Source: Albidovulum sp.
GTDB lineage: Bacteria > Pseudomonadota > Alphaproteobacteria > Rhodobacterales > Rhodobacteraceae
NCBI GenBank assembly: GCA_015491895.1
Contig: WFVA01000067.1
Coordinates: 1-64,000 of the forward strand
Length of the DNA stretch: 64,000 nucleotides
Direction: 5' to 3'
A model generated the notes under the pieces. The model ran no database searches and was not told where the DNA came from. It saw nothing but the letters and a program-made list of their open reading frames with translations. The position numbers and the translations under genes are program-made. Positions 6,904 to 60,710 of the stretch are shown here, in pieces. Position 1 is the first letter of the stretch. Every line of letters begins with the position of its first letter.

Positions 6904-6917
6904 CCCGCTCTGCGCTC

Positions 6918-6995
6918 ATCGCTGGTCAGAAAATATCCCCGCCGGAGGCAAGAAACTCAAATGCCTCCGGCGGGGATATTTTATGACCAGTGATG
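6918..6995. terminator. Bidirectional terminator: full palindromic copy of the dispersed GC-rich element
   Basis: Two perfectly complementary 20-nt arms (6931-6950 and 6962-6981) enclose an 11-nt loop. The pairing continues outward through the flanks CATCGCTGGTCA and TGACCAGTGATG with one mismatch. Each outward-reading arm ends in ATATTT, so it can terminate nhaA from the left and the mutase gene from the right. The same unit recurs as single arms elsewhere in the window and as a second full palindrome at 51158-51221. Confidence 0.85.
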
Positions 6996-7005
6996 GCAGC
7001 GAGAA

Positions 7006-9159: not shown

Positions 9160-9213
9160 CGGATTTCCCTTCCGCGGTGGGGGCGATCTGCCCCATGTGG
9201 TGGATCATGTCGG

Positions 9214-9231
9214 AAAAGCTTTGCAGCTTTT
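9214..9231. promoter_or_regulatory. Candidate PccR half-site in the mcmA promoter
   Basis: AAAAGC-TTTGCA-GCTTTT is an 18-bp interrupted palindrome between the divergent mcmA and DUF4174 genes, 55 nt upstream of the mcmA start. Its centre matches six of eight bases of the PccR half-site TTTGCAAA known from Rhodobacter sphaeroides, where the mutase gene is a PccR target. No second half-site at the expected spacing is seen, so this is tentative. Confidence 0.35.
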
Positions 9232-9291
9232 CGGCTTTTTCCCTTCGGATCGCCCGCGCAAGGGCTTATATCTTGAAGTGAAGGAGCCGAT

Positions 9292-9792
9292 ATGAAGCTG
9301 ATGAAAACACTCGCGCTGGCGCTGGCGCCGACATTGTTCGCCCAACCGGACGTCCTCGCGGCCCAGGAGAACGGCGCGAAGCCAGGCGAAGCCATGGTGG
9401 ATCCGGCAGCGGAGCTTGCCATACTTGATGCGCGCGATATCGAACTGGACGATTTCCTCTGGATTGCCCGTCCGCTGGTGATTTTTGCAGATACCCCGCG
9501 CGATCCCCGCTTCATCCTGCAGATGGAGCGGATCGAAGCCAGGCCCGGGGATCTCATCGAGCGCGATGTGGTGGTCATCATCGATACCGATCCCGCGGCG
9601 AGGAGCGCCGTGCGCCAGAAGCTGCGGCCCAACGGATTTACCTTCGTGCTCATTGACAAGGACGGCACCATCATCCTGCGCAAGCCCCAGCCCTGGGGCA
9701 CGCGCGAACTGGCCCGCGCCATCGACAAGACGCCCCTGCGCCAGGAAGAGATGGAGGCCGAAAAGGAATTGCAGCACGATGCGCTGAACTGA
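9292..9792 (+). CDS. DUF4174 family exported protein
   Basis: A 166-residue protein with an N-terminal signal peptide (hydrophobic residues 4-20, cleavage likely before AAQEN), so it is probably periplasmic. The mature part carries the DUF4174 pattern RPLVIFADTPRDPRF and FVLIDKDGTIILRKPQPW. The family has a thioredoxin-like appearance without a CxxC pair; its function is unknown. The start ATG 9292 has AAGGAG six nt upstream. It is transcribed divergently from mcmA; such DUF4174 genes often sit near propionate genes in Rhodobacterales, but no functional link is proven. Confidence 0.75.
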   Translation: MKLMKTLALALAPTLFAQPDVLAAQENGAKPGEAMVDPAAELAILDARDIELDDFLWIARPLVIFADTPRDPRFILQMERIEARPGDLIERDVVVIIDTDPAARSAVRQKLRPNGFTFVLIDKDGTIILRKPQPWGTRELARAIDKTPLRQEEMEAEKELQHDALN

Positions 9793-9831
9793 GCCGGCCC
9801 ATTGCCGGCATCGCGGCCCCTTCGGTGCAGA

Positions 9832-11559: not shown

Positions 11560-11598
11560 CCACAATTCCTTCCCCGTATCGCGCCGCCCTTCCCGGCC

Positions 11599-13644: not shown

Positions 13645-14205
13645 CAGGCTGCCCTTCTCTTTTCTTCCCCCGCCCCGATCCGGGGCTGCTCTTTTCCTTC
13701 GGTCCGGTCAATTGCGCCGAGAATATACACGCCCGCGCTCCCGGCGGGCCGATCTCGAAAAGCACCACGGCGGCGATCCGCGCCGGGGACGATCAAATCC
13801 CGGATGCCACCCTCGCGCTTGCCTGAAGGGCCGGCAACCGCTTCGTGAAGCCCGCCGGCCCCTGCCGGCGCTTCAACACGCGCATATCCAATGTTTTCGC
13901 GGATGGAGGGGGGGGAGAGCTCCCGGGCAATGCGCCGCTCCGGCAGGGCGGCACGGTGCGCGCCTCCTTCGCGCCCACCGGCACGGAGAGCGCGCGCACC
14001 ACGCATGCGGCCCGGCTTTTCAAGCCGGCGGACAGGCTGACGATCGGGGCCGGGATCGCCTGTGGCCGGCGCGGGACCCTGACGGGCACTTCCGATGACG
14101 CGGCCCGCTTCAGGATCTCGTGCCAGTTCACTTTCTGAACGGTGCGGAGCACCGCCGGGCGCAGATCCGCTGCCCGGCGGCTCCGGTTTCGCTGTCAGGC
14201 TGCTG
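13645..14205. other. Gene-poor interval between pccA and a lipoprotein gene
   Basis: I find no gene I can support. The plus strand has one frame with coding-like composition: about 48 codons (13683-13823), an in-frame TGA at 13824-13826, then 103 codons (13827-14138) ending in a stop. It has no convincing start or ribosome-binding site and no family I recognise, so it may be a decayed gene or chance. A long GC hairpin (arms CCGCCGGGC and GCCCGGCGG, near 14152-14183) lies just after the lipoprotein gene on the minus strand and could end its transcript. Confidence 0.4.
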
Positions 14206-14406
14206 TCAGTCGCAAATGCCGGCGTCGTCGCACAGGGCACCGGCACCCGCGCCGATGGCCGCCCCGGCGATGACATTGCTGTCAAGCGCCTCGGCAACGA
14301 TCGCACCAGCTGCTGCGCCGGCAACGGCGCGCTCGCCATCGGTCCGCAGGCAGCCGGAAAGAGCGGTGGTGAGAATGGCCGCGATGGCCCAGAGTTTGAT
14401 CTGCAT
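14206..14406 (-). CDS. Small glycine-zipper lipoprotein
   Basis: A 66-residue predicted lipoprotein. A signal peptide with lipobox (TTALSGC, Cys about residue 19) is followed by an alanine/glycine-rich stretch with repeated AxAAGA and GAAIGAGAGA patterns, as in short glycine-zipper outer-membrane lipoproteins, and a C-terminus with two cysteines (LCDDAGIC) that may form a disulfide. GGAGG lies 9-14 nt before ATG 14406, directly next to a 13-bp palindrome. It belongs to a series of small lipoprotein genes between pccA and pccB. The function is unknown. Confidence 0.75.
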   Translation of the reverse strand: MQIKLWAIAAILTTALSGCLRTDGERAVAGAAAGAIVAEALDSNVIAGAAIGAGAGALCDDAGICD

Positions 14407-14749
14407 CTTCTTCTGCCTCCAACAAGTCTTGTTATTGCGCCTGAATATAACACCTGGCCGGCGGCAAAAAAAGGGTTGCCGGCATGATCAGCAGGCTCGG
14501 CATGGTTTCGCCGAAGGCAGCCGGAACCGATGGCGGTAAAGAAAATGGGTGGCTTGAACATCAGATGCTCAAACCACCCAGAAGGGGAAGGGTAACGGTA
14601 TTGACATTGTGAAGCGAACAACTTGCTGGAGGAGCTCGCCTCGGAACTCAACCTGAACGATTCGGGCGCCGATTGAAACCCTGCCAGTGACAATCGGCCG
14701 ATATGGGCCGAAATCCGCCAAAAACGAGAACAATCAAGCAGATTCATGC
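14407..14749. promoter_or_regulatory. Leader of the glycine-zipper lipoprotein gene, otherwise no gene
   Basis: This 343-nt gap lies upstream of the lipoprotein gene on the minus strand. It contains a perfect palindrome AACAAG-T-CTTGTT at 14421-14433, abutting the ribosome-binding site. The rest is AT-richer than the surroundings. A 20-codon plus-strand tail ending at 14675 looks coding-like (LLEELASELNLNDSGAD then stop) but has no start codon, so it may be a gene remnant. I see nothing else. Confidence 0.4.
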
Positions 14750-15115
14750 TCAAACCCATTCCTCATCCCCTCCCGCGAACACTTCCGGGAAGCTCGCGCG
14801 GGCCTTTTCCACATCGATCCTGAGCAGAGCATCGTAACTTTCGGGATCAAAGGGATCCTCCGCCGGCACCACCTCACGGCCGAACAGCCATGAAAGGCGC
14901 CCGGCATCGAGATTGCCGCGCATGAAGGGTTCTTCTCCGAAATATTCCCAGAGCGCCGCCATGAAGGCTTCATCGGCGGCAAGATCGGCGGGGCGGCGAT
15001 CGGCATAGCGCTCACGGGCGATCAGCCGCGTTGCCCCTTTCTTGCCGGGACGGCGAATGGTGAAATGGTAATCGGTTCCGGTGAGGCGGGAGGGGAAGCC
15101 ACGGTGCTTCAGCAT
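14750..15115 (-). CDS. Conserved hypothetical protein
   Basis: A 121-residue soluble protein I do not recognise as a named family. It opens with LTGTDYHFTIRRPGKKGATRLIARERYADRRPA and has an acidic C-terminal half (AEDPFDPESYDALLRIDVEKARASFPE). There is no signal peptide or membrane span. The codon composition and the orderly amphipathic C-terminal part argue that it is real. It shares strand and spacing with the lipoprotein genes and pccA. ATG 15115 has GGAG about ten nt upstream. No function can be assigned. Confidence 0.65.
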   Translation of the reverse strand: MLKHRGFPSRLTGTDYHFTIRRPGKKGATRLIARERYADRRPADLAADEAFMAALWEYFGEEPFMRGNLDAGRLSWLFGREVVPAEDPFDPESYDALLRIDVEKARASFPEVFAGGDEEWV

Positions 15116-15241
15116 GGCGCTTCATCTCCCCGCAGCGCCCTCGCAGGCAGAATGCAGCCAAGGGAAGGCCGCGCACCCGGGGAGCGCGCGGCCTGGTGCT
15201 GCAAATCCGTGCCCGGCACGATGCCGGGGCCCCGGAAATGG

Positions 15242-15559
15242 TTACAGGTGCGTGAGCGTCGTATTGCCGCCGGTGTTGTTGCCCCCGCCATCGTCATCCC
15301 TGCCATTGTCATCCCGGCCATTGTGCGGGACGTCGCAGGGCATGCCCTGGCTGTCATAGCCATTCTCGCAGCGCGGCGGCTCGCAGGACTGGGTCTGGCT
15401 GTTGTAATCATAGCCGCCGGTGCACTGGCCCGTTGGCTCGCCATACTTGTTATAGATCGGCTCTGCCTGAATCGGCTCGGGCTCCGGGGCTGTCTGCGCA
15501 CATGCGGCAACCATCGAAACCACACCAAGAGCCGTAAAGATACCATGCCTGAATTGCAT
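15242..15559 (-). CDS. Small Asn/Gly-rich lipoprotein
   Basis: A 105-residue predicted lipoprotein: signal peptide with lipobox VAAC (Cys about 20), then AQTAPEPEPIQAEPIYNKYGEPTGQC, a cysteine-containing middle (four Cys) and a low-complexity tail rich in N, G and D. The start ATG 15559 follows AAGGAG at six to seven nt; an upstream GTG/TTG extension lacks support. It shares the lipobox region and the P-x-YNK motif with the 44-residue lipoprotein encoded just upstream, suggesting a tandem duplication. The function is unknown. Confidence 0.75.
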   Translation of the reverse strand: MQFRHGIFTALGVVSMVAACAQTAPEPEPIQAEPIYNKYGEPTGQCTGGYDYNSQTQSCEPPRCENGYDSQGMPCDVPHNGRDDNGRDDDGGGNNTGGNTTLTHL

Positions 15560-15678
15560 TTCGTTCTCCTTCCACAATCAATTGGCTTTACGCAAGGGAA
15601 AGCTAGCCATGCCTTTGCGGCAATATCAATAGCGGAATTCCATACCCGGCAGAATGGCGTGGAGATAACGGGCGCATG

Positions 15679-47764: not shown

Positions 47765-48784
47765 TTGCCAGGCAGGAGCAAGAGCCCGGAGCGCAGTGAG
47801 GGCAAGGCGGCAGGCCCCGGCCTCCCTCAGATCCATCTGCCGCGCAACACGGGCCGGCCGCTCGACATGGATTGGGTGCTGGCGGCAGAGGCCAATACCT
47901 CGGCCATCGAGCGGCGGGTGAAGGCCCTTCCGAGGCGGCGCAGCCTCAAGAAGGCGCATCAGGCCGCCTGGCTCCTGCGCGCCGTCACCCTGATCGATCT
48001 CACCACCCTTTCGGGCGATGATACGCCGGGCCGGGTGCGCCGCCTTTGCGCCAAGGCCCGCCAGCCGGTGCGCGCCGATCTCCTCGAGGCGCTCGGGATG
48101 AAACCGGGCGAGATCACCACCGGCGCGGTCTGTGTCTATCACGAGATGGTGGAGACGGCCGTTCGGGCGCTCGAGGGCACCGGCATTCCCGTCGCCGCCG
48201 TGTCCACCGGCTTCCCGGCCGGGCTTTCGCCCTTACACCTGCGGGTCGCCGAGATCGGCGAAAGCGTGAAGGCCGGCGCGCGCGAGATCGATATCGTCAT
48301 TTCGCGGCGCCATGTGCTCACCGGCAGCTGGCAGGCGCTTTACGATGAGCTGTGCGAATTCCGCGAGGCCTGCGGCGAAGCGCACATGAAGGCGATCCTC
48401 GCCACCGGCGAGCTTGGCAACCTGCGCAACGTGGCCCGCGCAAGCCGCGTTGCCATGCTTGCCGGCGCCGATTTCATCAAGACATCCACCGGCAAGGAAA
48501 GCGTAAACGCCACCCTGCCCGTTTCCCTGGTGATGTTGCGCGCGATCCGCGATTACGAAGCGCTCACGGGTTTCAAGGTGGGCTACAAGCCCGCCGGCGG
48601 CATCTCGAAGGCGAAGGATGCGCTCAACTATCTCGTGCTGGTGAAGGAAGAGCTCGGCACCCGCTGGCTTGCCCCCGAACTCTTCCGCTTCGGCGCAAGC
48701 TCGCTTCTGGGCGATATCGAGCGCCAGCTCGAACATCATGTAACCGGCGCCTATTCCGCCTCCTGGCGCCATGCGATCGGATAA
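47765..48784 (+). CDS. deoC: Deoxyribose-phosphate aldolase
   Basis: A 339-residue class I aldolase that splits 2-deoxyribose-5-phosphate into glyceraldehyde-3-phosphate and acetaldehyde. It has the VKAGAREIDIVISRR strand, HMKAILATGELG and the Schiff-base lysine in ADFIKTSTGKES. Length is that of the longer DeoC form. I choose TTG 47765 because AAGGAG is six nt before it; upstream codons are promoter. It ends four nt before the aldehyde dehydrogenase gene, and the pair can oxidise the acetaldehyde product. Confidence 0.9.
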   Translation: MPGRSKSPERSEGKAAGPGLPQIHLPRNTGRPLDMDWVLAAEANTSAIERRVKALPRRRSLKKAHQAAWLLRAVTLIDLTTLSGDDTPGRVRRLCAKARQPVRADLLEALGMKPGEITTGAVCVYHEMVETAVRALEGTGIPVAAVSTGFPAGLSPLHLRVAEIGESVKAGAREIDIVISRRHVLTGSWQALYDELCEFREACGEAHMKAILATGELGNLRNVARASRVAMLAGADFIKTSTGKESVNATLPVSLVMLRAIRDYEALTGFKVGYKPAGGISKAKDALNYLVLVKEELGTRWLAPELFRFGASSLLGDIERQLEHHVTGAYSASWRHAIG

Positions 48785-48788
48785 CAAC

Positions 48789-51143
48789 ATGACCGTAAAA
48801 GACATTTTCGAAAGCATGGATTACGGCCCCGCTCCCGAAAGCCCCGCCGAGGCGCTGAAATGGATCCAAAATCACGGCGGCGAGTTCGGCCATTTCATCA
48901 ATGGCGAATTCACCCGCCCGCGCGCCGATTTCGCCACCATGAATCCGGCCACCGGCGAGGTGCTGGCCCATGTCGCCCAGGCCACGGGCGATGAGGTGGA
49001 CACCGCCGTGGCCGCCGCGCGAAAGGCGCAAGGGCCATGGGCGAAGCTCCCGGGCCATCAGCGGGCGAAGTATCTCTATGCCCTTGCCCGCCTGATCCAG
49101 AAACACGCCCGCCTGTTTGCCGTTCTGGAAACGCTCGACAACGGCAAGCCGATCCGCGAGAGCCGCGATATCGACATCCCGCTCGCCGCGCGCCATTTCT
49201 ATTACCACGCCGGCATTGCACAGCTGATGGAGGCCGAGCTTCCCGACGCCGAGCCTCTTGGCGTTGCCGGGCAGATCATCCCATGGAATTTCCCGCTCCT
49301 GATGTTCGCCTGGAAGATCGCGCCGGCCATTGCCACCGGCAACACGGTGGTGCTGAAACCGGCCGAATACACCCCGCTCACGGCGTTGCTGTTTGCCGAA
49401 ATCTGCCGCGAGGCCGGGCTGCCGAAGGGGGTTGTCAACATCGTCACCGGCGATGGCGCGGTGGGAGAAATGATCGTGGCCCATGAGGGGATCGACAAGA
49501 TCGCCTTCACCGGCTCCACCGAGGTCGGCCGGCGCATCCGCGAGGCCACGGCAGGGAGCGGCAAGGCGCTCACCCTCGAGCTTGGCGGCAAATCGCCCTA
49601 TATCGTGTTCGAAGATGCCGATATCGACAGCGCCATCGAAGGGCTGGTGGAGGCGATCTGGTTCAATCAGGGGCAGGTCTGCTGCGCGGGCTCGCGGCTC
49701 CTGGTGCAGGAAGGCATCGCCGAGGATTTCCTTGCCCGCCTCAAGGCGCGCATGAACAAGCTGCGCATCGGTGATCCGCTGGACAAATCCATCGATATCG
49801 GCGCGCTCGTCGATCCGGTGCAGCTTGATCGCGTGCGCCGCATGGTGGCCGAGGGCGGCGGCGAGGGCGAGGTTTTCCACGCCGATTGCCCGCTCCCCGA
49901 TCGGGGCTGCTACTACCCGCCCACGCTGGTGACGGATCTCGCCCCCGCCTCGATGCTGATGCAGGAGGAGATCTTCGGCCCCGTCCTGTGCGCCACCACC
50001 TTCCGCACCAAGGCGGAAGCGATCGAGATTGCCAACAACACCCGCTACGGCCTCGCCGCCAGCGTCTGGAGCGAAAACCTCAACCGCGCGCTCGATGTGG
50101 CGCCGGCGCTGGCCGCGGGCGTGGTGTGGGTCAATGCCTCCAATCTCTTCGATGCGGCGGCCGGCTTTGGCGGTGTGCGCGAAAGCGGCTTTGGCCGCGA
50201 GGGCGGCTGGGAGGGGCTTTGGGCCTACATGCGCCCGCGCATGAAGCTCACCCCCCTGAAACCGATCCCGCCGGTGCCCGCGCCCAAGGATGCAAAGGTG
50301 GAGGGGATCGACCGCACCGCCAAGATGTTCATCGGCGGCAAACAGGCCCGCCCCGACAGCGGTTATTCCCGCGCCGTCTGGTCACCGGACGGAAAGCTCC
50401 TCGGCCATGTGGGCCTCGGCAACCGCAAGGATGTGCGCAACGCGGTAGAAGCCGCGCGCAAGGCGCAAGGGCCCTGGGCCGCCACGCCGGGCGCGCTCAA
50501 GGCGCAGATCCTCTATTACATCGGCGAAAACCTCGCCTCGCGGGCCGATGAATTCGCCGCCCGCATTGATGCGATGACGGGAAGGCGCAGCGGCACGAAA
50601 GAGGTGGAAGCAGCCATCTCGCGCCTTTTCACCTATGCCGCCTGGGCCGATAAATACGACGGCCTCGCCCACAACGTGCCGATCCGCGGCAAGGCGCTGG
50701 CGATGAACCAGCCCGTGGGCGTGATCGCCGCGCTTGCGCCGGACGAATCCCCGCTCCTCGGGCTGATCTCCGTGATGGCACCCGCAATCGCCATGGGCAA
50801 TGCGGCGGTGATCGCCGCCAGCGAGCCCTACCCTCTCGCCGCCACCGATTTCTCCGAGGTGCTCGAAACATCCGACGTGCCGGCCGGCGTCGTCAACATC
50901 CTCACCGGCCAGCACACGGACATGGCCGAAACCATGGCCCGCCACATGGATGTGGATGCCTGCTGGAGCTTCTCCTCCACCGATCTTTCCGCCCTGATCG
51001 AACATGGCTCGGCCACGAACCTGAAGCGCACATGGGCCAACAACGCCCGCAGCCGCGACTGGCTCTCCCCCGCCGGAGAAGGCCGTGAATTCCTGCGCCA
51101 GGCCACCGAAGTGCAGAACATCTGGATCCCCTGGGGAGAATGA
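48789..51143 (+). CDS. Double-domain aldehyde dehydrogenase, ALDH16 type
   Basis: A 784-residue protein with two aldehyde dehydrogenase domains in tandem. The first (about residues 30-480) is complete, with NAD motif GQIIPWNFPLLMFAWK, LELGGKSPYIVF and catalytic Cys in FNQGQVCCAGSRLLVQ. The second (about 500-780) resembles an ALDH fold but lacks the catalytic Cys motif and Glu motif, as in ALDH16. The first domain probably oxidises aldehydes such as the acetaldehyde from DeoC; the second is structural. The start ATG 48789 follows deoC by four nt. Confidence 0.85.
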   Translation: MTVKDIFESMDYGPAPESPAEALKWIQNHGGEFGHFINGEFTRPRADFATMNPATGEVLAHVAQATGDEVDTAVAAARKAQGPWAKLPGHQRAKYLYALARLIQKHARLFAVLETLDNGKPIRESRDIDIPLAARHFYYHAGIAQLMEAELPDAEPLGVAGQIIPWNFPLLMFAWKIAPAIATGNTVVLKPAEYTPLTALLFAEICREAGLPKGVVNIVTGDGAVGEMIVAHEGIDKIAFTGSTEVGRRIREATAGSGKALTLELGGKSPYIVFEDADIDSAIEGLVEAIWFNQGQVCCAGSRLLVQEGIAEDFLARLKARMNKLRIGDPLDKSIDIGALVDPVQLDRVRRMVAEGGGEGEVFHADCPLPDRGCYYPPTLVTDLAPASMLMQEEIFGPVLCATTFRTKAEAIEIANNTRYGLAASVWSENLNRALDVAPALAAGVVWVNASNLFDAAAGFGGVRESGFGREGGWEGLWAYMRPRMKLTPLKPIPPVPAPKDAKVEGIDRTAKMFIGGKQARPDSGYSRAVWSPDGKLLGHVGLGNRKDVRNAVEAARKAQGPWAATPGALKAQILYYIGENLASRADEFAARIDAMTGRRSGTKEVEAAISRLFTYAAWADKYDGLAHNVPIRGKALAMNQPVGVIAALAPDESPLLGLISVMAPAIAMGNAAVIAASEPYPLAATDFSEVLETSDVPAGVVNILTGQHTDMAETMARHMDVDACWSFSSTDLSALIEHGSATNLKRTWANNARSRDWLSPAGEGREFLRQATEVQNIWIPWGE

Positions 51144-51157
51144 TCTCCTCATTTCTC

Positions 51158-51221
51158 ATCACTGGCCGATAAATATCCCCGCCGGAGGCAAGAAAGTTCG
51201 ATGCCTCCGGCGGGAGTATTT
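51158..51221. terminator. Bidirectional terminator: second full palindrome of the dispersed element
   Basis: Arms at 51171-51190 and 51202-51221 are complementary except at two positions, with an 11-nt loop similar in sequence to that at 6951-6961. The left flank is CATCACTGGC. It lies between the convergent ALDH16 and ArgE/DapE genes, the same genetic setting as at 6918-6995. Confidence 0.85.
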
Positions 51222-51236
51222 TCACCAAGATGAAGA

Positions 51237-52526
51237 TCAGGCGCGGCAGAGAAGCTTTTCCAGTGTGAGCGCCATCACCTCGGCGCTGTCGCACATGTCC
51301 TGCACCGAAATCCATTCATCAGGCTGATGGGCCAGATCGAGGATGCCGGGGCCATAGGCGATGCAGTTCTTCAGCCGGCCGATGCGATCGATGTGCTTCT
51401 GATCGTATGTGCCCGGCGAGACGACATATTCGGGGCGTTTCCTGAGCACCGCTTCGATCGCCTCGGCCACGGTCGTGACGACGGGGGCGCCGCGGTCCGT
51501 CATCGAAGGGGCGACCTCCATCATGTCGCGGATTTCATAAGAGAAATTCGGGCGGCGGGCCTTTATCCGCTCCAGCATGGCGGCGATCTCGCCCTTTACC
51601 TCCTCAAGGCTCTCCTCGATCAGGAAACGGCGATCGATCACGATGCGGCAGCGATCGGGCACGCAAGGCGCCGGCAGGCCGGTGTAGCCTTCGCACTGCT
51701 CGGGCTCGCCGCCGTGAATGGAGTTGATGTTGAGCGTGGAGTGGCGCGCGCCCTCGGGCACCACGGGCATTTCGGTGCTGCGCCCTTCGAGAAGCGGGAA
51801 GAGATATTCCTCCATCTCTGCCAGCACTGCGCCCATGTGGCGAATGGCGCTGTCGCCGAGGAAGGGCATGGAGCCGTGGGCGATGCGGCCCTTCGTTTCG
51901 ATCTCGGCCCACCAGACACCGCGATGGCCGAGGCAGATGCGATCCTTGTTGAGCGGTTCGGGGATGATCACGTGTTGCACCCGATCGGGGCTGAAATATC
52001 CTCGCTCCGCCAGATGAGCGACGCCGCCATAGCCGCCGGTTTCCTCGTCAGCGGTGGCGGAGATCTCGATTGCGCCGGCGAAATCGGGATGGATGGCGAG
52101 AAAGGCCTCGGCGGCGATGATGGAGGTGGCGAGGCCGCCTTTCATGTCGCATGCGCCGCGGCCATAGATGCGATCTCCCTCAAGGACGGCGGCGAAAGGA
52201 TCGCGGCGCCACCCCTGGCCGACCTCGACTACATCGTGATGGCTGTTGAAATGGACGCACTCCCCCGCGCGCGCCCCCTCGCGCCGCGCGATCATGTTCC
52301 AGCGCGGATGTTCTTCGCTGTCGCCCGGCGCGCCTTCGGCGCGGATCAGTTCCACCGCAAAGCCCGAACCTTCCAGCCGGGCGGCGAGAAACGCGCAGAT
52401 CTCGTGATAGTTCAGCCCCGGCGGATTGAGCGTCGGGATGCGGATCAGATCCTGCGTCAGCGCGATCAGATCCTCTCTTCGGGCGGCAATTTCGGCGCGC
52501 AGGCTTTTTTCACGGGCTTCATTCAT
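51237..52526 (-). CDS. ArgE/DapE family metallo-deacylase
   Basis: A 429-residue M20-type hydrolase with a binuclear zinc site: VHFNSHHDVVEVG (His-Asp), IYGRGACDMKGGLA (bridging Asp), ATADEETGGYGG (catalytic Glu pair) and a C-terminal His ligand near the end. It removes acyl groups from amino acids or small peptides; the precise substrate cannot be told between acetylornithine, succinyl-DAP and others. A lid domain interrupts the catalytic one around residues 185-310. The start ATG 52526 has a weak ribosome-binding site. Confidence 0.8.
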   Translation of the reverse strand: MNEAREKSLRAEIAARREDLIALTQDLIRIPTLNPPGLNYHEICAFLAARLEGSGFAVELIRAEGAPGDSEEHPRWNMIARREGARAGECVHFNSHHDVVEVGQGWRRDPFAAVLEGDRIYGRGACDMKGGLATSIIAAEAFLAIHPDFAGAIEISATADEETGGYGGVAHLAERGYFSPDRVQHVIIPEPLNKDRICLGHRGVWWAEIETKGRIAHGSMPFLGDSAIRHMGAVLAEMEEYLFPLLEGRSTEMPVVPEGARHSTLNINSIHGGEPEQCEGYTGLPAPCVPDRCRIVIDRRFLIEESLEEVKGEIAAMLERIKARRPNFSYEIRDMMEVAPSMTDRGAPVVTTVAEAIEAVLRKRPEYVVSPGTYDQKHIDRIGRLKNCIAYGPGILDLAHQPDEWISVQDMCDSAEVMALTLEKLLCRA

Positions 52527-52653
52527 GTAATCAGCTTATGACTCCGTTACTGATGCCGCAACGCAACAGTTGCGGCGATTTGCAGGCCAGGTGATGTAAA
52601 GTAGATTAACATTACCCATATGAAGGCCATCCGTATGATGACGAGGAGGAAAT

Positions 52654-53730
52654 ATGGCCGATTTTGACGCTCAGATCGAGGCTTCGAAGAAGCAAGTTGC
52701 GCAGGCGCAGAGCAAGATCTCTGAAATCACCTCGCGCATCGACAGGGTGCGCGAGAAACTGAAGGCGGGGGAGGAGATCGAACTCGATATCGAAAATGCC
52801 ACGCTTGAGGACGTGCATGCCCATACCGAGGCGATGAATGCCAATATCGCCGAACTGATCATGGGGCTTGACGACGTCACTGCCGGATTTTCGCGCGAAT
52901 TCAACGAGATGCGCGACAAGACGGGCTGGGAGAGCTTTGTCGGTATCTTCTCGAAGGCCAAGGCCGAATCCATGCGCGCCGAGCGTATCCGCGCCGCCAG
53001 CGTGGATGACAAGCTGCAGGATCTGATCTCGAAATCAGATGTGATCGTGAAGCTTCTCGAAGGCCAGCTTGCGGTGCTCAACGAGCAGAAGGAAAAGGTA
53101 AGCGCCAATCTCGCCGATACGCTGGATGAGCGCGAGGCGGTGGTGGCCGAGCTTGAAAGCCTGCGCGCCGAGATTCAGGCGCTTGATCCGAAGATCATCG
53201 ATCTCGAGAACAGGATCAGCGTCGAGCAGGATGCGGCAAAACGCACCCAGCTCGAAACCGAGCTTGCCGAGCTCAACGCGAAATACAATGAGATGGTGCA
53301 GCAGGAGCAGGTGAAGCTCGCCAAGAGCCAGACGCTCGAGCGCTATATCGAGAAGGGCAAGACATGGGTAGACAGCCTGCAGAATCAGGCCGCGACCCAG
53401 ATGGTGCTGATCAACAAGCTGCAGACGGATACACGCCAGCGCGTGGTGCTCTATGACGCGCTGACCAAATCTCTGAAAACGGCGCAGCAGCAGGATGTGG
53501 CGCACCGGATCAACGAGATCGGCGTGGAAACCGACAAGGAAGCCCAGGCCGCCATGGCCGCGATCGGCACCGCAACCAACCAGCGCATGGCCGACATGAT
53601 GGAGGCCCATGAGGATCAGATGGTCTTTGCCCGCAAGGTGCTGGAACAGAAGGCAAAGGCCGATGAACGCTTCGCCCGCCGCTTTGCCGAGATCGTCGAG
53701 AAGCACGACAAGAATCTCTACGGTTCCTGA
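52654..53730 (+). CDS. Large coiled-coil protein, first gene of AAA/DUF6638/DUF1523 operon
   Basis: A 358-residue, highly charged, mostly helical protein with long coiled-coil segments (about residues 5-60, 115-215 and 215-330), no cysteine, no signal peptide and no membrane span. The composition (E, Q, K, A rich) and ordered heptads, for example DEREAVVAELESLRAEIQALDPKI, look like TelA or PspA-like membrane-stress proteins, but no family motif is certain. ATG 52654 follows GAGGAGG. It overlaps the next gene by one nt (TGATG), so it belongs to the operon. Confidence 0.75.
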   Translation: MADFDAQIEASKKQVAQAQSKISEITSRIDRVREKLKAGEEIELDIENATLEDVHAHTEAMNANIAELIMGLDDVTAGFSREFNEMRDKTGWESFVGIFSKAKAESMRAERIRAASVDDKLQDLISKSDVIVKLLEGQLAVLNEQKEKVSANLADTLDEREAVVAELESLRAEIQALDPKIIDLENRISVEQDAAKRTQLETELAELNAKYNEMVQQEQVKLAKSQTLERYIEKGKTWVDSLQNQAATQMVLINKLQTDTRQRVVLYDALTKSLKTAQQQDVAHRINEIGVETDKEAQAAMAAIGTATNQRMADMMEAHEDQMVFARKVLEQKAKADERFARRFAEIVEKHDKNLYGS

Positions 53731-54863
53731 TGGCAGACACCGATCTCACCAAGGATCACGCCGAAATCGCAGATGGGGCACTGACAGGGCGCTATTTCGC
53801 AAAGTTCGAGCGCATCCTCGCCCATCTTGATCGCGTAGCCGGGATGATGGAGCGCGAAGGGCGTCTTGCGCGGGCCGATGTGGCGATTCTTGCGGGATAC
53901 ATGCGTGCGCTGGCCAGGACCTTCACCGCGCTTTCCCACAAATACATGTTTGCCCGCCACCGGGCCGGGGGCGGCGGCAGCGGGCTGACCATAGATCGGA
54001 TCGAGAGCGGGTTTCCCGTGTTTCAGGAGATCCTGACCATGGCCAATGATGCCCAGCAGGCCGAACGCCACCTGCGCAACATGCCCGGCGGGGATGAACT
54101 GCGCGAGGCGATGATCCGCGAGATCCTGGGCGAATTGCGGGTGCCGGTGAAGCTGCAATATGCGCTGGCCCAGCGGCTCTATTACGAGGCCCTTGCGGGG
54201 GGCGAACTGTTCTGGGCGCGAAACGATCCGGTTGCCATCTGGCTGGGCAATGTGGGGGATGGGGACAGGCGGCGCTATATGCTGCATTGGGCCGTCTATG
54301 ACAGTCAGACGAATCTCCCGGCGATCTATCTGATGGATCTCGAGGATTCAGGCCGCGACGCGCTCGCGAAGGACGAACGCCGCTGGCCCGAGGTGCAGGC
54401 GCATCTGATGGCGCAATCGGTGAATGCGCTGAAGCTTCTGACCATCGCCAGGGGGTTTGACGAGGATTTCGCCGATCTCCACCCCAAGCGCCTGCGCCGT
54501 TTTCATGTGGGGCCGATGTATTCCTCCGCCTTCACCCGCCAGAGCGGCCCGCTCAGCGAGGTGCTGGAGCAGGCGCGAGGGGGGGCGGGCGAGGATTGGG
54601 CCCTTGCCTGGACGGTGGAAACACTTGCAAGCGAGCGGGTGAAGGAGGAGCGCACGGGCTGGTTTTCCACCGTGGAGCGCGAGATCTTCGCGCTGGATCC
54701 CTTCTCTGCCGAAGGATCGGACAGCGGCGCAACCCGCATCGAGCGCGCATTGATCCTGCCGCAAAAGCCCTTTCAGGTGCTGGACGAGCTGGATCCGCCC
54801 GGTTTCCGGGCCTTGCGCAAGTTCGTGGTAAGCCCCGGAGGGACGGTTGTGAGCTATCGCTAG
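53730..54863 (+). CDS. Unknown cytoplasmic protein of the AAA operon
   Basis: A 377-residue soluble protein I do not recognise. Features are an N-terminal helical part (GRYFAKFERILAHLDRVAGMM), a middle with conserved-looking LFWARNDPVAIWLGNVGDGDRRRYMLHWAVYDSQ, and a C-terminus ending in SPGGTVVSYR. It has no membrane segment or signal. Its start overlaps the stop of the coiled-coil gene and it is followed by the AAA ATPase after 42 nt. It is likely a partner of that ATPase, but the role is unknown. Confidence 0.7.
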   Translation: MADTDLTKDHAEIADGALTGRYFAKFERILAHLDRVAGMMEREGRLARADVAILAGYMRALARTFTALSHKYMFARHRAGGGGSGLTIDRIESGFPVFQEILTMANDAQQAERHLRNMPGGDELREAMIREILGELRVPVKLQYALAQRLYYEALAGGELFWARNDPVAIWLGNVGDGDRRRYMLHWAVYDSQTNLPAIYLMDLEDSGRDALAKDERRWPEVQAHLMAQSVNALKLLTIARGFDEDFADLHPKRLRRFHVGPMYSSAFTRQSGPLSEVLEQARGGAGEDWALAWTVETLASERVKEERTGWFSTVEREIFALDPFSAEGSDSGATRIERALILPQKPFQVLDELDPPGFRALRKFVVSPGGTVVSYR

Positions 54864-54905
54864 GCGCCGGACAGAGGGTCTCGAAGCAGGAAGAAGGAAA
54901 GAAAT

Positions 54906-56846
54906 GTGAGCATCACGGGTGACATGATGGAGCTTCGCGAAAGCGATATCCGGGCGCATTACGGCGCGGCGGAGGAAATGCTCGCAGGCTTCGATCACAC
55001 GCCGCGCCTTGCGCGGCCCAGGGAAGCCCCGAAAACGGAGCGCTCGCCCGGAATCGCCACCCGCCGCCGTTTCCGCTCCACCACCCCGGGGCTGGTGACG
55101 CGCAGCACCGCGCGCCCCGAAGGCGTGCGGCTGATCGAGCGGATCGAAGCGGCTGACGGGGGCGATGCGCTGATCTCTCCAACCCAGGCGAGCGTGATCC
55201 ACGCCCTGCGCCGCGCGATGGCGATCGCGCTTGCGCTTGGCGATACCTACGCCGGGCAGACGGGGCTGAAGGCGCTGAAGAAGGCCAATCTGGAGGGGGG
55301 GCTGGCGGCGGCGAAGAAGGCTGAATTCACCGAGCTTCTGGCTGCCGAGGCAGCAATCGTGCTGCATGTGTTTGCCAATGCGCTTTCCTTCCTGCTTGCG
55401 CCGCTGGCCGGCAGCGCCACGGTGGAGGTGGGGGAGGTCGAGGAAATCCTGCTGGAAAACGCGCCGCTCGCGCTTCAGGGCGCGCTCTGGGAGCTCGATC
55501 AGGACATCGACGCCTTCGCGAGCGACGAGCCCCATCTGGTGGCCACGCTCATGGCGTTTGGCGAGCAGCTGATGGAAAAGGTGGCCCTGCGCGCGCAGAA
55601 CCTGCCCCGCCTCGGCCCATTCGAGGGCGCGCGCTACCGGGTTGAAGCCGATGATCTCACCATCCAGGGCTTCACCCCGGCGCGCCGCGGCAGGGGCGCG
55701 GCGCTCACCATGGCCTTCAAAAAGCCCGAGGAGGTGGTGGGCAACCATATCGCCAAATACCAGGCGATGAAACTGGCCAAGATGCTGATGGCCTATGATT
55801 TCGAACGCCGGCTCAATCCCTTCGCCGAGCTTGGCGGCTTCATCTTCACCTTCATGGGCGATGGCCTGCCCGGCACCGGCAAGACGCTGCTGATCCAGAT
55901 GATGGCCGGAATGATCAACGATTACTGCCGGAATGCCGGCTACCCCTTCCGCTATCAGAATTTCTCGATCGATCAGATCGATAGCTACCAGGGCAAGTCC
56001 GGCCAGAACGCCAAGGCCTTCATCACCTCGATCACAGATCCCGCCGTGATCGGCTTCGGCACCGTGGACGATATCGATCAGGTGGCCGGCAAGCGGGGGG
56101 ATCGCCAGTCGAGCGCCGGCCAGCAGGAGGTCACGGCGGTGCTGATGGAGGCCTTCGCCGGCGCCAATACGGTGGTGCGGGGCAACTGCACCTTCGGCAT
56201 GTTCTCCAACTATCCCGAAAACGTGGATGACGCCCTGCGCCAGCGCGCCGGCGCCCGTTTCCTCGTGGATGGCCCGCAGACGCGCGAGGATTACATCGAT
56301 ATCCTGCACCTGCTTCTGGGCAAGAACCACGAGATCCCGGTGGGCGATCACGATCTGTTTGCGTCCCAGGCCATCAGGAAGGCGGTGGCGAAGAGCTACG
56401 AAAGCTACAACCGCCCGCATGAGGAGGGGCTGATCAGGGTCTGGGAGCGGGTGGAGAGCGAAATCGGCGCGCTTGACACGATCGCGAAGCTCGGCACCTA
56501 CCTCAAGGCCATCCAGGAGGCCGATCCCCGCTTCACCGGCCGCGCCATCAAGAACATCACCGATGCGGTGAAGGTGCGGGCGATGGATTTCGAACTGCCG
56601 GACGAATGGATGGAAAAGCCCGATCTCTTCCTGTTGCGCTCCTATGACGAGAAGAAGGAAATGATCCGCGAACTGATGCGTCCGATCACCGCCGAGATGG
56701 TGATCCAGGAGATCAACCGCTACGCCGACAGCGAATTTCGCTATGCCGACAAATCCGACGAAGCCGCGATCGCGGCGATGGTGCGCGAGATGCGCCGCAC
56801 CGAGGAGGCCAGGCGGCGCTATCTGGAGGAGAAGGGCAGCAAATGA
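54906..56846 (+). CDS. AAA+ ATPase with long N-terminal region
   Basis: A 646-residue AAA+ ATPase. A helical N-terminal region (about 1-300) precedes the ATPase core: Walker A GDGLPGTGKT (residues 318-327), Walker B GFGTVDDID (383-391), and a second-region segment DDALRQRAGARF (441-452) with the spacing of the sensor and arginine residues of classical AAA proteins. The ribosome-binding site AAGGAAAG precedes the GTG start at 54906. It overlaps the DUF6638 gene by four nt (ATGA). It should remodel or disassemble a partner, plausibly the coiled-coil or membrane proteins encoded beside it. Confidence 0.85.
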   Translation: MSITGDMMELRESDIRAHYGAAEEMLAGFDHTPRLARPREAPKTERSPGIATRRRFRSTTPGLVTRSTARPEGVRLIERIEAADGGDALISPTQASVIHALRRAMAIALALGDTYAGQTGLKALKKANLEGGLAAAKKAEFTELLAAEAAIVLHVFANALSFLLAPLAGSATVEVGEVEEILLENAPLALQGALWELDQDIDAFASDEPHLVATLMAFGEQLMEKVALRAQNLPRLGPFEGARYRVEADDLTIQGFTPARRGRGAALTMAFKKPEEVVGNHIAKYQAMKLAKMLMAYDFERRLNPFAELGGFIFTFMGDGLPGTGKTLLIQMMAGMINDYCRNAGYPFRYQNFSIDQIDSYQGKSGQNAKAFITSITDPAVIGFGTVDDIDQVAGKRGDRQSSAGQQEVTAVLMEAFAGANTVVRGNCTFGMFSNYPENVDDALRQRAGARFLVDGPQTREDYIDILHLLLGKNHEIPVGDHDLFASQAIRKAVAKSYESYNRPHEEGLIRVWERVESEIGALDTIAKLGTYLKAIQEADPRFTGRAIKNITDAVKVRAMDFELPDEWMEKPDLFLLRSYDEKKEMIRELMRPITAEMVIQEINRYADSEFRYADKSDEAAIAAMVREMRRTEEARRRYLEEKGSK

Positions 56847-58198
56847 AGCGGCTGATCGAACGCGGGCTGATGTTTGGCAATCTGGTGCGGGTCGATACGC
56901 CTGCGCTGGTGGCGCGCTACAACCGCGCGCTTGAAAAGCTCACCGGCAGGCGCACCGATCTCACGGATTTTCACATCGATCTTTCCGGCTACTCGCCGGA
57001 GGTGGGCGATCAGCTGGGCGATCACCTCTATCTCAATGAAAACGGCTGCAATCGCCAGTTCATCCTGCTCACCACCGAGCAGAAGCGCGCACCGCTCCTC
57101 AATGCGAAATTTTCCACCTCGCGCGCCATCCTGCGCCGCTTCATCGAGGAAAACGAAGCACAGCTCTTCGCCCTCACCGCACGCGATGCGGTGATCGGCG
57201 AGATGCTGAACTCCGTCTATGACGTGAGCGAGCCCGCACGCCTGCTGGATCTCCGTCGGATCACCATCGAAGCCGATACCACCGAAGGCCATGTGGAAAT
57301 CGCCGGCGAGCTGGCCCGCATGATCGAACGTTTCCGCAAGGAGGAAAACGCCTGGCGCGACGAGGCCTTGATCGCGGAGATGATCCTGCTGGCGCAAAAG
57401 ACGGGCGACGTGACGCGCAGCCCGATCCGGCTCAGATCCGCCAGCTTCCGGCAGGACAATTTCTGGACGGCCCATTTCGGCGGGCTTTACATCTTTCAGG
57501 GGGTCGAGCATCCGGCGGCGATTTCGGAAAGCGAGGGGAAGAAGCCGGACGGCCTGCCGATGAAATATGTGTTCGATCTCTCCAATCGCAACCGGATCGC
57601 GCATTTCCTCGATCTGAACGATCTCGTGGAGCCCATCGTGCAGGCGCGCGGGATTGATGCGGCGTCGATCCTGCGGCGCAAGATGGATTTCATCGTGATG
57701 GATGTGGCGGCGGAAAGGGGCGATGATCCGGCCGGCGCCTCAAGGCGCGATCTGCGCGCCTATGCCCGGCGCCATGCCGGTGATCTGCCCGAAGAATTTC
57801 ACGCCCTCTCGGCGCTGCTGCGCTGGGCCGAGGGGGGCGGAAAATGGCCGCGCATCTCGGCCGGGCATCCGGCCTATTTCTATACCCTGCGCGCGGCACC
57901 CCACGCTGACCGCGATCTGGTGAACATGCTTCTGGCCGCGCTTTCGCCGCGCGATTTCTTTCAGCTCTTCATCACCCACAAGGAGCTTTTCTACCGCAGA
58001 TACGCCACCTGGCCCGAGGCGAAGAAGGATTTCGTGGCCGATTTTCTCGAACGCGAGTATCTTGCCGACAAGGCCGGCGCGCGCGAAGCATTGTTCGGCA
58101 CGCCCGAGGCGCGCGAAACAGGCAGAGGCGGAGACGCGGGCAATGATCTGATCGATCTCGTCGGCCCCTGGGGCGCCGTCAGGAAAAGGAGGCGATGA
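56843..58198 (+). CDS. DUF6638 family protein
   Basis: A 451-residue protein of DUF6638, a family restricted mostly to alphaproteobacteria. It has FHIDLSGYSPEVGDQLGDHLYLN near residue 43, RLRSASFRQDNFWTAHFGGLYIFQG in the middle and RRYATWPEAKKDFVADFLEREYL near the C-terminus. No membrane span or enzymatic motif is evident. It overlaps the AAA gene by four nt and the next small gene at its stop. The function is unknown; co-translation with the ATPase implies physical association. Confidence 0.8.
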   Translation: MKRLIERGLMFGNLVRVDTPALVARYNRALEKLTGRRTDLTDFHIDLSGYSPEVGDQLGDHLYLNENGCNRQFILLTTEQKRAPLLNAKFSTSRAILRRFIEENEAQLFALTARDAVIGEMLNSVYDVSEPARLLDLRRITIEADTTEGHVEIAGELARMIERFRKEENAWRDEALIAEMILLAQKTGDVTRSPIRLRSASFRQDNFWTAHFGGLYIFQGVEHPAAISESEGKKPDGLPMKYVFDLSNRNRIAHFLDLNDLVEPIVQARGIDAASILRRKMDFIVMDVAAERGDDPAGASRRDLRAYARRHAGDLPEEFHALSALLRWAEGGGKWPRISAGHPAYFYTLRAAPHADRDLVNMLLAALSPRDFFQLFITHKELFYRRYATWPEAKKDFVADFLEREYLADKAGAREALFGTPEARETGRGGDAGNDLIDLVGPWGAVRKRRR

Positions 58199-58464
58199 TG
58201 TTCGCTCTTGTCCGGCTTGCCGTGATCGGCTTCGTCTTTCTCACCATCGTCTATTTCATTGTGCGCATCTACATGCGCTCGCTGGAAGCGGAGCGCCTTG
58301 AAAAGCTCTGGGAAGAAGAGGGCCGCCCCGGCACGATGGATGATTTCGTCGATCGCGGCCTCGCCGATTACGAGCGCTCGCTGAGGCGCAAGCTGATCTG
58401 GCTTGTCTATGTGGTGCCGACGCTCCTCGTGGCGGTGCTGATCTATGTCGTCAATTTCATGTGA
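58198..58464 (+). CDS. Small two-helix membrane protein
   Basis: An 88-residue protein with two membrane helices (residues 5-25 and 65-87) around a charged middle (RSLEAERLEKLWEEEGRPGTMDDFVDRGLADYERSLRRK). The start is ATG 58198, five nt after AGGAGG; ATG 58195 is too close to the ribosome-binding site. The DUF6638 stop overlaps it. It would place the operon's product in the membrane, next to the DUF1523 protein. Confidence 0.75.
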   Translation: MFALVRLAVIGFVFLTIVYFIVRIYMRSLEAERLEKLWEEEGRPGTMDDFVDRGLADYERSLRRKLIWLVYVVPTLLVAVLIYVVNFM

Positions 58465-58472
58465 GGAATGCA

Positions 58473-59162
58473 ATGCGCCTGCCAAGCTGGAAGAATGTCA
58501 AACGCACGCTGAAGGTGCTCCTCGTGCTGCTGGTGATCGCGGTGCTGCACTACAGTCTGCCCCAGCACGATATCGTGCGCATCACGGATACTTACGAAAA
58601 GCGTATCGATCCCGGGGAAAACCGGATCTTCTGGGCCGCGCCCGATATCGGCAATGATCCCAATGTGCAGAACCGCGACGTGTTCTTCATCCAGGCGGTG
58701 CGGCCCAACGGCAAGGTGATCGTCTATCGCAACGAGGATACCGGCTGGGGCTGGCCACCCTATTTCAAGTTCGATACCTCCGATCTTCAGGCCGAGGCAT
58801 CGGATCTGAAATCCACCGCCGGCAATCCGAAGTGGGTTTCGATCACCCATTACGGCTGGCGCAACCGTTTCCTCTCGATCTACCCGAATGCGATCTCGAT
58901 CAAGCCGGTGTCGGGGCCGGATGTGCGCATCATTCCCTGGGCCAGCATCTTCATCCTGGCCGCGCTTGCCTTCGTCCTGTTCATGATCCGGCGCATGTGG
59001 CTGCAGTTTCGCGAGCGCATGGTGGATCCCGCGATCGATAACGTCAGCGAGGTGATCGATCGCGTGGACAGCCAGGCGGACGAGGCGGCCGAGCGCGCGC
59101 GGGGGCTCTGGGCACGCTTTCGCGCCTGGCTCGATACATGGCGCGGCAAGCCCCGGCCGTGA
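58473..59162 (+). CDS. DUF1523 family membrane protein
   Basis: A 229-residue DUF1523 protein: a membrane helix at residues 10-28, a soluble (probably periplasmic) domain with QHDIVRITDTYEKRID, ENRIFWAAPDIG and FKFDTSDLQAEASDL, a second helix at about 155-175, and a charged C-terminal tail. The start ATG 58473 follows GAGGA; it begins nine nt after the small membrane protein. The function of the family is unknown. Confidence 0.85.
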   Translation: MRLPSWKNVKRTLKVLLVLLVIAVLHYSLPQHDIVRITDTYEKRIDPGENRIFWAAPDIGNDPNVQNRDVFFIQAVRPNGKVIVYRNEDTGWGWPPYFKFDTSDLQAEASDLKSTAGNPKWVSITHYGWRNRFLSIYPNAISIKPVSGPDVRIIPWASIFILAALAFVLFMIRRMWLQFRERMVDPAIDNVSEVIDRVDSQADEAAERARGLWARFRAWLDTWRGKPRP

Positions 59163-59237
59163 AAGGGGCTTCCAAAGCTGTTGATCTGCGCTAGGCTTGC
59201 GAAAAAGACCGCAAAGAAAACAGTGGAGGATACCCCG

Positions 59238-60710
59238 ATGTTCAACCGACTGAAGCTCGCCATCGCCGCGCTGGCGCTCTCCGCGAGCGCCGCCCTGGCC
59301 GCGAAGGACACGATCACGCTGGGCATGGTGCTGGAGCCCCCCAATCTCGATCCCACCGCCGGGGCGGCGGCGGCGATCGACGAGGTGGTTTACGCCAACA
59401 TCTTCGAAGGGCTCACGCGCTTTGGCCCCGATGGCTCGATCCTGCCGGCGCTCGCCGAAAGCTGGGAAATCTCCGATGACGGCAAGGTCTATACCTTCAC
59501 CCTGCATGGCGGGGTGAAATTCCATGACGACACGGAGATGGAGGCGACGGACGTCAAGTTCAGCCTCGATCGCGCCCGCGCGGAGGACAGCACCAACGCC
59601 CAGAAGGCGCTTTTTGCCGGGATCGAGAGCGTCGAGGCGCTCGACCCACGCACGGTGCGCGTGACCTTGAAGAACCCGGACGGCCTCTTCCCCTTCAAGA
59701 TGGCCTGGGGGGATGCGGTGATCGTGGCGCCCGAAAGCATCGGCAAGGCCGCGACCCATCCGATCGGCACCGGGCCTTTCCGCTTCGTGAAATGGGTGAA
59801 GGGCGATCGGGTGGAGATCGAAAGGAACCCGGATTACTGGGGCGCGCCGGTGAAGCTTTCGCATGCCACGTTCAAGTTCATCTCCGATCCCAATGCCGCC
59901 TTCGCCGCCATGATGGCCGGGGATGTGGATGCCTTCCCCAATTTCCCCGCACCCGAGACGCTGGAGCAGTTCAGGGCAGATCCGCGCTTTCGCGTGATCG
60001 TGGGCTCGACGGAGGGCGAAACCATCCTCTCCACCAACAACAAGGCCGGGCCGCTGGCCGATATCCGGGTGCGCAAGGCTATCGCCCATGCGATCAACCG
60101 GCAGGAAATCATCGATGGCGCCATGTTCGGCTACGGCACTCCGATCGGCACCCATTTCGCCCCCCACAACCCGGCCTATGTGGATCTGCGCGCGCTTTCG
60201 AAACATGATCCCGAGCTTTCGAAAAAGCTTCTGAAGGAAGCCGGGCAGGAGGGGCTTCGCCTGCGCCTCATGCTGCCGCCCCCCACCTATGCGCGCCGGG
60301 GCGGCGAGATCGTCGCCTCGCAGCTGCGCGCGGTGGGAATCGAAACCGAGATCACCAATCTCGAGTGGGCGCAATGGCTTGAGCAGGTGTTCAAGGGCAA
60401 GGATTACGATCTGACGATCGTCAGCCACACCGAGCCGATGGATATCGGCATCTATGCCCGCCCGGATTACTATTTCCAGTATGACAACCCGGCATTCCGC
60501 GATCTGATGGATCAGCTCAATCTCGCCACCGCTCCCACCAGGCGCGCCGCCATTCTCGGCGCGGCGCAGGCGATGATCGCGCGAGATTACGTCAATGGCT
60601 ATCTCTTCCAGCTTGCGAAAACCGGTGTCGCCAACGCGAAGATCCGCGGCCTGTGGGAAAACGCGCCCACCCAGGCCAATGATCTGACGGGCGTCTACTG
60701 GGAAGAATAG
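59238..60710 (+). CDS. Peptide/nickel-type ABC transporter substrate-binding protein
   Basis: A 490-residue periplasmic binding protein of family 5 (DppA/OppA). The signal peptide is residues 1-22 (cleavage after SASAALA). The signature is YANIFEGLTRFGPDGSILPALAESWEISDDGKVYTFTLHGGVKFHD. It should bind peptides or similar compounds. ATG 59238 follows GGAGG. It starts a transporter operon; a complex stem-loop separates it from the permeases. Confidence 0.85.
   Translation: MFNRLKLAIAALALSASAALAAKDTITLGMVLEPPNLDPTAGAAAAIDEVVYANIFEGLTRFGPDGSILPALAESWEISDDGKVYTFTLHGGVKFHDDTEMEATDVKFSLDRARAEDSTNAQKALFAGIESVEALDPRTVRVTLKNPDGLFPFKMAWGDAVIVAPESIGKAATHPIGTGPFRFVKWVKGDRVEIERNPDYWGAPVKLSHATFKFISDPNAAFAAMMAGDVDAFPNFPAPETLEQFRADPRFRVIVGSTEGETILSTNNKAGPLADIRVRKAIAHAINRQEIIDGAMFGYGTPIGTHFAPHNPAYVDLRALSKHDPELSKKLLKEAGQEGLRLRLMLPPPTYARRGGEIVASQLRAVGIETEITNLEWAQWLEQVFKGKDYDLTIVSHTEPMDIGIYARPDYYFQYDNPAFRDLMDQLNLATAPTRRAAILGAAQAMIARDYVNGYLFQLAKTGVANAKIRGLWENAPTQANDLTGVYWEE

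Follow-up and report, generated by a model that had tools for sequence, protein, structure and literature searches.

What task is served by an operon whose core genes are kept while the proteins lodged between them are exchanged among close relatives is the question raised by a locus of Albidovulum sp. Here, we report the analysis of this locus, which consists of six co-directional, tightly packed genes (G1 to G6 below) on the forward strand of contig WFVA01000067.1 (assembly GCA_015491895.1); the window is the whole stretch analyzed, 64,000 nucleotides (nt) long. Four of the genes form a core around an AAA ATPase, and in relatives two junctions of this core are hypervariable slots occupied mostly by predicted membrane proteins. 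These membrane-protein slots favor a modular membrane machine.

G1 (52654 to 53730) is an open reading frame (ORF) for a coiled-coil protein of 358 residues, and its place as first gene is kept in distant cores. G2 (53730 to 54863, 377 residues) encodes a protein with a helical N-terminal half and a beta C-terminal half of weakly T-fold-like arrangement. G3 (54906 to 56846, GTG start, 646 residues) encodes the AAA ATPase, with the AAA domain at about residues 320 to 453, and G4 (56843 to 58198, 451 residues), a DUF6638 protein (PF20343), closes the core. G5 (58195 to 58464, 89 residues) has two predicted membrane helices and opens a separable pair with G6 (58461 to 59162, GTG start, 233 residues), a DUF1523 membrane protein (PF07509) with predicted helices at residues 13 to 31 and 157 to 175. 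Gene calls were made with a GC-frame heuristic, and helices were called from a Kyte-Doolittle hydropathy window, not a trained predictor.

All six ORFs were found at the place and on the strand given in a preliminary description of this DNA, which had recognized an operon-like, co-inherited set without assigned function (an AAA ATPase, a coiled-coil protein, and membrane proteins); that outline stands, as do its two membrane proteins, since G5 and G6 have two helices each by hydropathy. The overlaps described there, 1, 4, and 3 nt, were borne out for the 1-nt overlap (G1/G2) and the 4-nt overlap (G3/G4); none of 3 nt exists, and the remaining two (G4/G5 and G5/G6) are also 4 nt. A gap of 42 nt separates G2 from G3. 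Pfam assigned G3 to AAA (PF00004; E value 1.5e-13, 51.8 bits versus a cutoff of 21.2), G4 to DUF6638 (7.3e-222, 737.4 bits versus 27), and G6 to DUF1523 (1.2e-73, 246.7 bits versus 23). No Pfam family exceeded its cutoff in G1, G2, or G5, and none of the six proteins reached any NCBIfam cutoff. Matches to PADLOC-DB 2.0.0 were weak for G1 (LmuB, 2.2e-4; REase_II, 2.4e-3) and G3 (TRIP13, 6e-4), and there were none for G2, G4, G5, and G6. A scan for sigma-70 promoters returned 0 sites and was uninformative.

The junctions between these genes were examined in 79 of 80 named loci of relatives (L140 was left out because it has only 4,744 bases). The six genes lie on one strand in 70 of the 79; of the other nine, two break the core and seven are cut off by the end of a contig. 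Carriers with occupied slots include Ruegeria faecimaris DSM 28009 and Shimia abyssi DSM 100673. Extra ORFs stand at the G3-G4 junction in 56/75 loci (on the same strand in 54) and at the G1-G2 junction in 33/76 (same strand in 31), with 5/78 at G2-G3 and none at G4-G5 or G5-G6 (0/72 loci each). The window has both hypervariable junctions empty, as a 1-nt overlap at G1-G2 (53728 to 53732, forward strand) and a 4-nt overlap at G3-G4 (56843 to 56846, forward strand). Altogether, 113 of 127 inserted ORFs are on the operon strand (38 at G1-G2, 70 at G3-G4, and 5 at G2-G3), and the two slots take 108 of these 113, with predicted membrane helices in 89 of the 108. At least one helix is predicted in 91/113 inserts versus 19/113 length-matched ORFs from the flanks, and two or three helices are predicted in 67 inserts versus 6 controls. 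In the overlap counts, the start codon giving an overlap closest to 4 nt was chosen, which biases them toward 4 nt.

The inserts are mostly unrelated to each other: the 113 fall into 80 clusters, including 66 singletons, and looser profile clustering yielded 74 groups (with 7 reversed-decoy matches at the same threshold). Within clusters, 16 listed pairs differ by 611, 410, and 932 changes at codon positions 1, 2, and 3, as for coding DNA, a result that covers the clustered inserts and excludes the singletons. Turnover was followed in pairs of loci whose G3 proteins are at least 90% identical. Where the slot was occupied in both members, an insert family was common to both in 4/62 pairs at G3-G4 and 5/42 at G1-G2, counts that come from non-independent pairs (23 and 15 loci) and were the same under looser clustering. 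Among 63 pairs, the DNA did not align at the junction in 61 for G3-G4, 50 for G1-G2, 4 for G2-G3, 0 for G4-G5, and 10 for G5-G6; the test stretch covers 250 nt of G4 and less of the other genes, so that the G3-G4 count may be inflated. Breaks in the aligned flanks numbered 38 in 414 kilobases downstream (62 pairs) and 54 in 246 kilobases upstream (41 pairs). Ruegeria faecimaris (L159) and Ruegeria sp. ANG-R (L163), for example, have AAA proteins that are 97% identical and no inserts related at the threshold.

The start of G2 is partially copied in 3/42 G1-G2 gaps and 0/69 G3-G4 gaps, so direct repeats were rejected as a general mechanism of insertion. In two Ruegeria loci (L162, 8463 to 8516; L163, 8427 to 8482), such a partial copy lies upstream of the G1-G2 insert, an arrangement that tandem addition of a cassette could have left.

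By Pfam (E value of ≤0.001), the 113 inserts matched 17 families with one member each, including Mrr, DUF559, PIN_10, AbiJ_NTD4, and DUF433; nuclease-like and toxin-like genes of mixed type are among the inserts. Ten of the 113 were rescanned by name, giving an Mrr-like type IV restriction enzyme (L106), PDC-S31 (L124), a weak DrmA match (L109), and no match for the remaining seven. A DUF559-like endonuclease occupies the G3-G4 slot both in one Rhodobacteraceae locus (L164) and in rhizobial-type loci (L168 and L175). In one insert family, which recurs in 11 loci, a charged stretch resembling a coiled coil comes after the membrane helices. When 10 of its 11 members were searched against 120 genomes of the family (the family sample), five matches were obtained at an E value of ≤1e-4; DUF6638 is 324 and 30 nt away from the two strongest (genomes G282 and G277, respectively), and it was not matched in the genomes that gave the three weaker ones. 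Other genes were also seen inside rhizobial-type cores, namely a Fic-domain ORF between G2 and G3 (L170, 8803 to 9630) and, at the G3-G4 junction of Sinorhizobium meliloti, a gene with an endonuclease domain together with an IS4-like transposase (L175, 11106 to 12851).

The preliminary description had taken the six genes as one unit, and this did not hold. A single six-gene unit is ruled out by the occurrence of the G5-DUF1523 pair without the core and of the core without the pair. In the family sample, DUF1523 is present in 106/120 genomes and DUF6638 in 54/120 (missing from 66/120); DUF1523 stands 284 to 474 nt from DUF6638 in 54/54 carriers, and 52 of the 106 genomes with DUF1523 have no DUF6638. 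In 20 DUF1523-only loci read from these 52 genomes, G5 directly precedes DUF1523 in 15. In the class sample, DUF6638 was found in 4/240 genomes and DUF1523 in 7/240, and all four DUF6638 copies adjoin DUF1523. Aligned to the window with blastn, a congener (genome G341, locus L046) matches 47818 to 52511 at 81% and 58195 to 60708, which includes G5 and G6, at 82%. This congener thus keeps the flanks and the pair, and the intervening 52512 to 58194, which holds G1 to G4, is absent from the syntenic place; G1 to G4 therefore come or go as a block beside a steadier G5-DUF1523 pair. The co-occurrence of AAA protein, DUF6638, and DUF1523 put forward for checking in the preliminary description proved nonrandom, both within the core and, in the family sample, between the core and DUF1523.

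Beyond the family, the core was tracked with profiles built in this analysis. The order G1-G2-G3-G4 is kept in Rhodobacteraceae, in rhizobia, on Vibrio megaplasmids, and in a few further lineages, and the closest named relatives of G3 are mostly from Rhodobacteraceae. In the phylum sample, the G3 profile matched 20/299 genomes at an E value of ≤1e-15. Families f105 and f161 have the core with DUF1523 and no recognized G5; for f155, five of the 8 genomes with the core were read. A gammaproteobacterium (genome G399, L172) has all six genes, and its AAA protein is 72% identical to the window G3 despite belonging to another class, which suggests that its operon was transferred from Rhodobacteraceae-like bacteria. 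The AAA proteins of the Vibrio megaplasmids are 37 to 39% identical to G3; neither DUF1523 nor DUF2333 was seen beside the core in the stretches read there, and mfd follows the core. A very divergent gammaproteobacterial copy (genome G920, AAA identity of 23%) has a 291-residue protein with two predicted helices, other than DUF1523 or DUF2333, overlapping G4 by 4 nt.

Rhizobial-type loci have the core without DUF1523 in the stretches read, and a DUF2333 membrane protein adjoins G4 in 8/9 of them. They also adjoin genes for thymidine kinase and formate-tetrahydrofolate ligase, neighbors seen in rhizobial-type loci only. SMc02733, which is named in one paper, may be part of the S. meliloti core. 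In the gammaproteobacterial sample, DUF2333 is present in 97/369 genomes and DUF6638 in 2/369, and no core gene was found in four DUF2333-only loci (L188 to L191). For a phage origin, tblastn of G3 against 50,697 phage records gave no match. A 359-kilobase IMG/VR contig classed as viral (L181, positions 895 to 15668) has the core with DUF2333 directly upstream of G1; it also encodes SmpB, FliM, and DnaJ, and searches of the record for Terminase_6N and DUF1523 gave no match. The contig may be bacterial and misclassified, or it may represent an unusual phage of large size.

G3 has a canonical Walker A motif (GLPGTGKT), and its profile matches Cdc48/PAN/Rpt chains. AAA proteins normally carry Glu at the second acidic position of Walker B; in G3 (VDDID) this residue is Asp, as in 99/99 aligned sequences including that of the window. 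The intact Walker motifs ascribed to G3 in the preliminary description are thus correct for Walker A, and Walker B has Asp instead of Glu, which may slow ATP hydrolysis. Columns 320 to 327, 435, 445, 447, and 451 are conserved in the 99 sequences, with one Ser for Thr at 327; we take these to be Walker A, the sensor Asn, and the arginine fingers, the arginines being 445, 447, and 451. Of the features of classical AAA domains, G3 thus shows a domain score above the cutoff, a Walker A motif, the arginine fingers, and the sensor Asn, and it lacks the catalytic Glu of Walker B; the profile places its family with the classical AAA domains.

The other core proteins gave fewer leads. PspA_IM30 and Snf7 were not matched by G1 of the window (E value of ≤1) or of Vibrio and S. 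meliloti (E value of ≤0.1), a test of sequence only. Against sequence profiles of the PDB, G1 gave weak coiled-coil matches only, and G2 and G4 gave nothing significant. With hhalign, G1 (116 to 278) aligned to TelA (142 to 300) with a probability of 17% and G2 to TelA with 4.7%; no Pfam TelA match (PF05816) was found in G1 at an E value of ≤1. The window genome has a separate TelA gene (G000:C30:2015-3007, E value of 2.2e-110). G1, G2, and G4 are not related to one another (probability of 0.1 in each of three comparisons). The AlphaFold model of G2 (predicted local distance difference test score [pLDDT], 89.3; predicted template modeling score, 0.88) has in its C-terminal half the order of strands and helices of T-folds. 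Urate oxidases, dihydroneopterin aldolases/epimerases, PTPS, QueF-like enzymes, and GTP cyclohydrolase I share the T-fold, and these enzymes make up 41 of the 50 VIA-align matches listed for G2, the best at a Z score of 4.8 (root mean square deviation, 3.6 over 119 residues), where a Z score below 5 may, according to the tool, be merely a common arrangement. Foldseek found no PDB match for G2 at an E value of ≤0.001, and a single match to viral models (E value of 7.2e-4; template modeling score, 0.10) was discarded. Because Z is 4.8 or less, the modeled T-fold resemblance is a lead only. The G4 model was fair (pLDDT, 83.7), and its fold search gave no useful match.

Several described systems resemble this operon in part. 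MoxR-vWA "ternary" conflict systems are described as having a conserved AAA+ NTPase core with hypervariable effectors (PMC7159879). The window operon likewise has an AAA+ core and relatives with strongly varying parts, which would here act as outputs; unlike MoxR, however, G3 is a classical AAA protein with PF00004 as its only family, no vWA family was found in the six proteins by Pfam at an E value of ≤1, and the variable part here consists of separate small, mostly membrane proteins at two operon junctions. In the available part of PMC11237479, AAA-PspA/Snf7 operons are described as membrane remodelers, and neither G2 nor DUF6638 is named. The likeness to PspA/Vipp1, or to ESCRT-III with Vps4-type ATPases, lies in a classical AAA protein beside a coiled-coil protein and membrane proteins; the differences are that G1 matches neither PspA_IM30 nor Snf7 and that hypervariable slots are present. 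BREX and related systems have effectors embedded in core loci (PMC12839542), and "DUF6638" does not occur in the main text of that paper. Extra nuclease effectors inside a conserved operon are the feature shared with BREX; in contrast, Pfam found no BREX part in the window operon, and the inserts here are mostly membrane proteins. With the TelA/KlaA family of toxic-anion resistance, G1 shares a helical character and the low-probability alignment above, without the Pfam match. A search on DUF6638 in the literature collection used here found no paper. The working principle resembles that of MoxR-vWA ternary systems, and the parts resemble AAA-coiled-coil membrane remodelers; as judged from sequence, the window operon lacks a defining feature of each. 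No system found in the searches contains the G1-G4 core; the principle of combining variable outputs with an NTPase core that stays fixed is known.

Our reading, held tentatively and at slightly less than an even chance, is that of a modular machine for surveillance or conflict at the membrane, in which the ATPase core is fixed and the membrane proteins can be swapped. In this machine, G3 would form a ring and, at the inner membrane, remodel or gate an assembly of the G1 coiled-coil protein. The membrane partner beside the core, G5-DUF1523 in the window and DUF2333 in rhizobia, would supply a sensor or anchor (DUF1523 or DUF2333) whose extracytoplasmic parts report the state of the membrane. 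Slot proteins would be exchangeable outputs (effectors) or self-protection parts, with their genes swapped by recombination between the conserved core genes. In a narrower form, which is possible but doubtful, the operon is an undescribed immune or conflict machine whose coiled-coil/AAA/DUF6638 core controls interchangeable membrane effectors and so gives close relatives different membrane weapons or phage-exclusion proteins. Several observations weigh against such readings. The slots are empty in the window and in some relatives; the window operon is a bare version, and since its slots are empty, the core must act in some way without slot proteins. The core has no convincing PADLOC match, and the inserts are not enriched in PADLOC families (18 families with one member each among 113 inserts versus 23 with up to three members among 113 controls, the control matches being largely regulator-like models [Csa3, CasR, and CARF3] and mad2/mad3/mad8). 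The stable site beside DUF1523 is unlike that of a highly mobile defense island, the genes flanking the window operon look metabolic on a reading of their sequence, and the turnover pairs share loci. Finally, a metagenome-assembled genome (L118) has a lone G3 in a full-length locus, and Roseovarius sp. ZX-A-9 (L153), also full-length, has G1 to G3 without G4 to G6.

Housekeeping-type membrane remodeling or envelope stress management of the PspA/Vipp1 or ESCRT-III/Vps4 kind would explain the slot genes as fast-evolving accessory subunits fitted to the membrane of each species. The classical AAA domain, the coiled-coil partner, the adjacent membrane proteins, and the chromosomal site beside DUF1523 in 54/54 carriers agree with this explanation, as does the membrane-remodeling role given to AAA-PspA/Snf7 operons in PMC11237479. 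We nevertheless regard it as somewhat unlikely: G1 has neither a PspA_IM30 nor a Snf7 match at the thresholds given, the core is dispensable, being absent from 66/120 family genomes, and near-total replacement of slots in close relatives is unusual for the subunits of such a complex. Replacement of slots at such a pace is better explained by an arms race, against phages or competitors, than by a housekeeping role. Were the G1-G2 and G3-G4 junctions instead passive landing sites, at which small orphan genes are tolerated without any functional tie to the core, the lack of a known family in most inserts (the 17 Pfam families named among the 113 have a single member each) and the mixture of nuclease- and toxin-like genes, with Fic in L170 and an IS4 transposase plus endonuclease in S. 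meliloti, would be expected. This is improbable given the excess of membrane proteins (91/113 versus 19/113), the shared direction of 113/127 inserted ORFs, and the neighboring G4-G5 and G5-G6 junctions, which hold inserts in 0/72 loci. Least probable by far is an operon that makes or senses a small molecule, in which G2 is a T-fold enzyme that acts on purines or pterins and is partnered by the AAA protein; the 41 T-fold enzymes among 50 listed matches (best Z score, 4.8) and the thymidine kinase and formate-tetrahydrofolate ligase neighbors point that way, but a Z score below 5 may reflect a common arrangement, Foldseek gave no PDB match at an E value of ≤0.001, and those neighbors are confined to rhizobial-type loci.

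If, as in the modular machine tentatively preferred here, the core controls the slot proteins, Alphaproteobacteria and Gammaproteobacteria would have in it a new chassis on which membrane effectors can be swapped. DUF6638, DUF1523, and perhaps DUF2333 would at once gain a role, and dozens of small membrane proteins would already be sorted by position. With slots that turn over this fast on a constant core, the idea of an arms race can be tested directly. Were it instead an envelope-stress system, the operon would still be unusual, as a conserved AAA operon in which two positions for membrane proteins are hypervariable.

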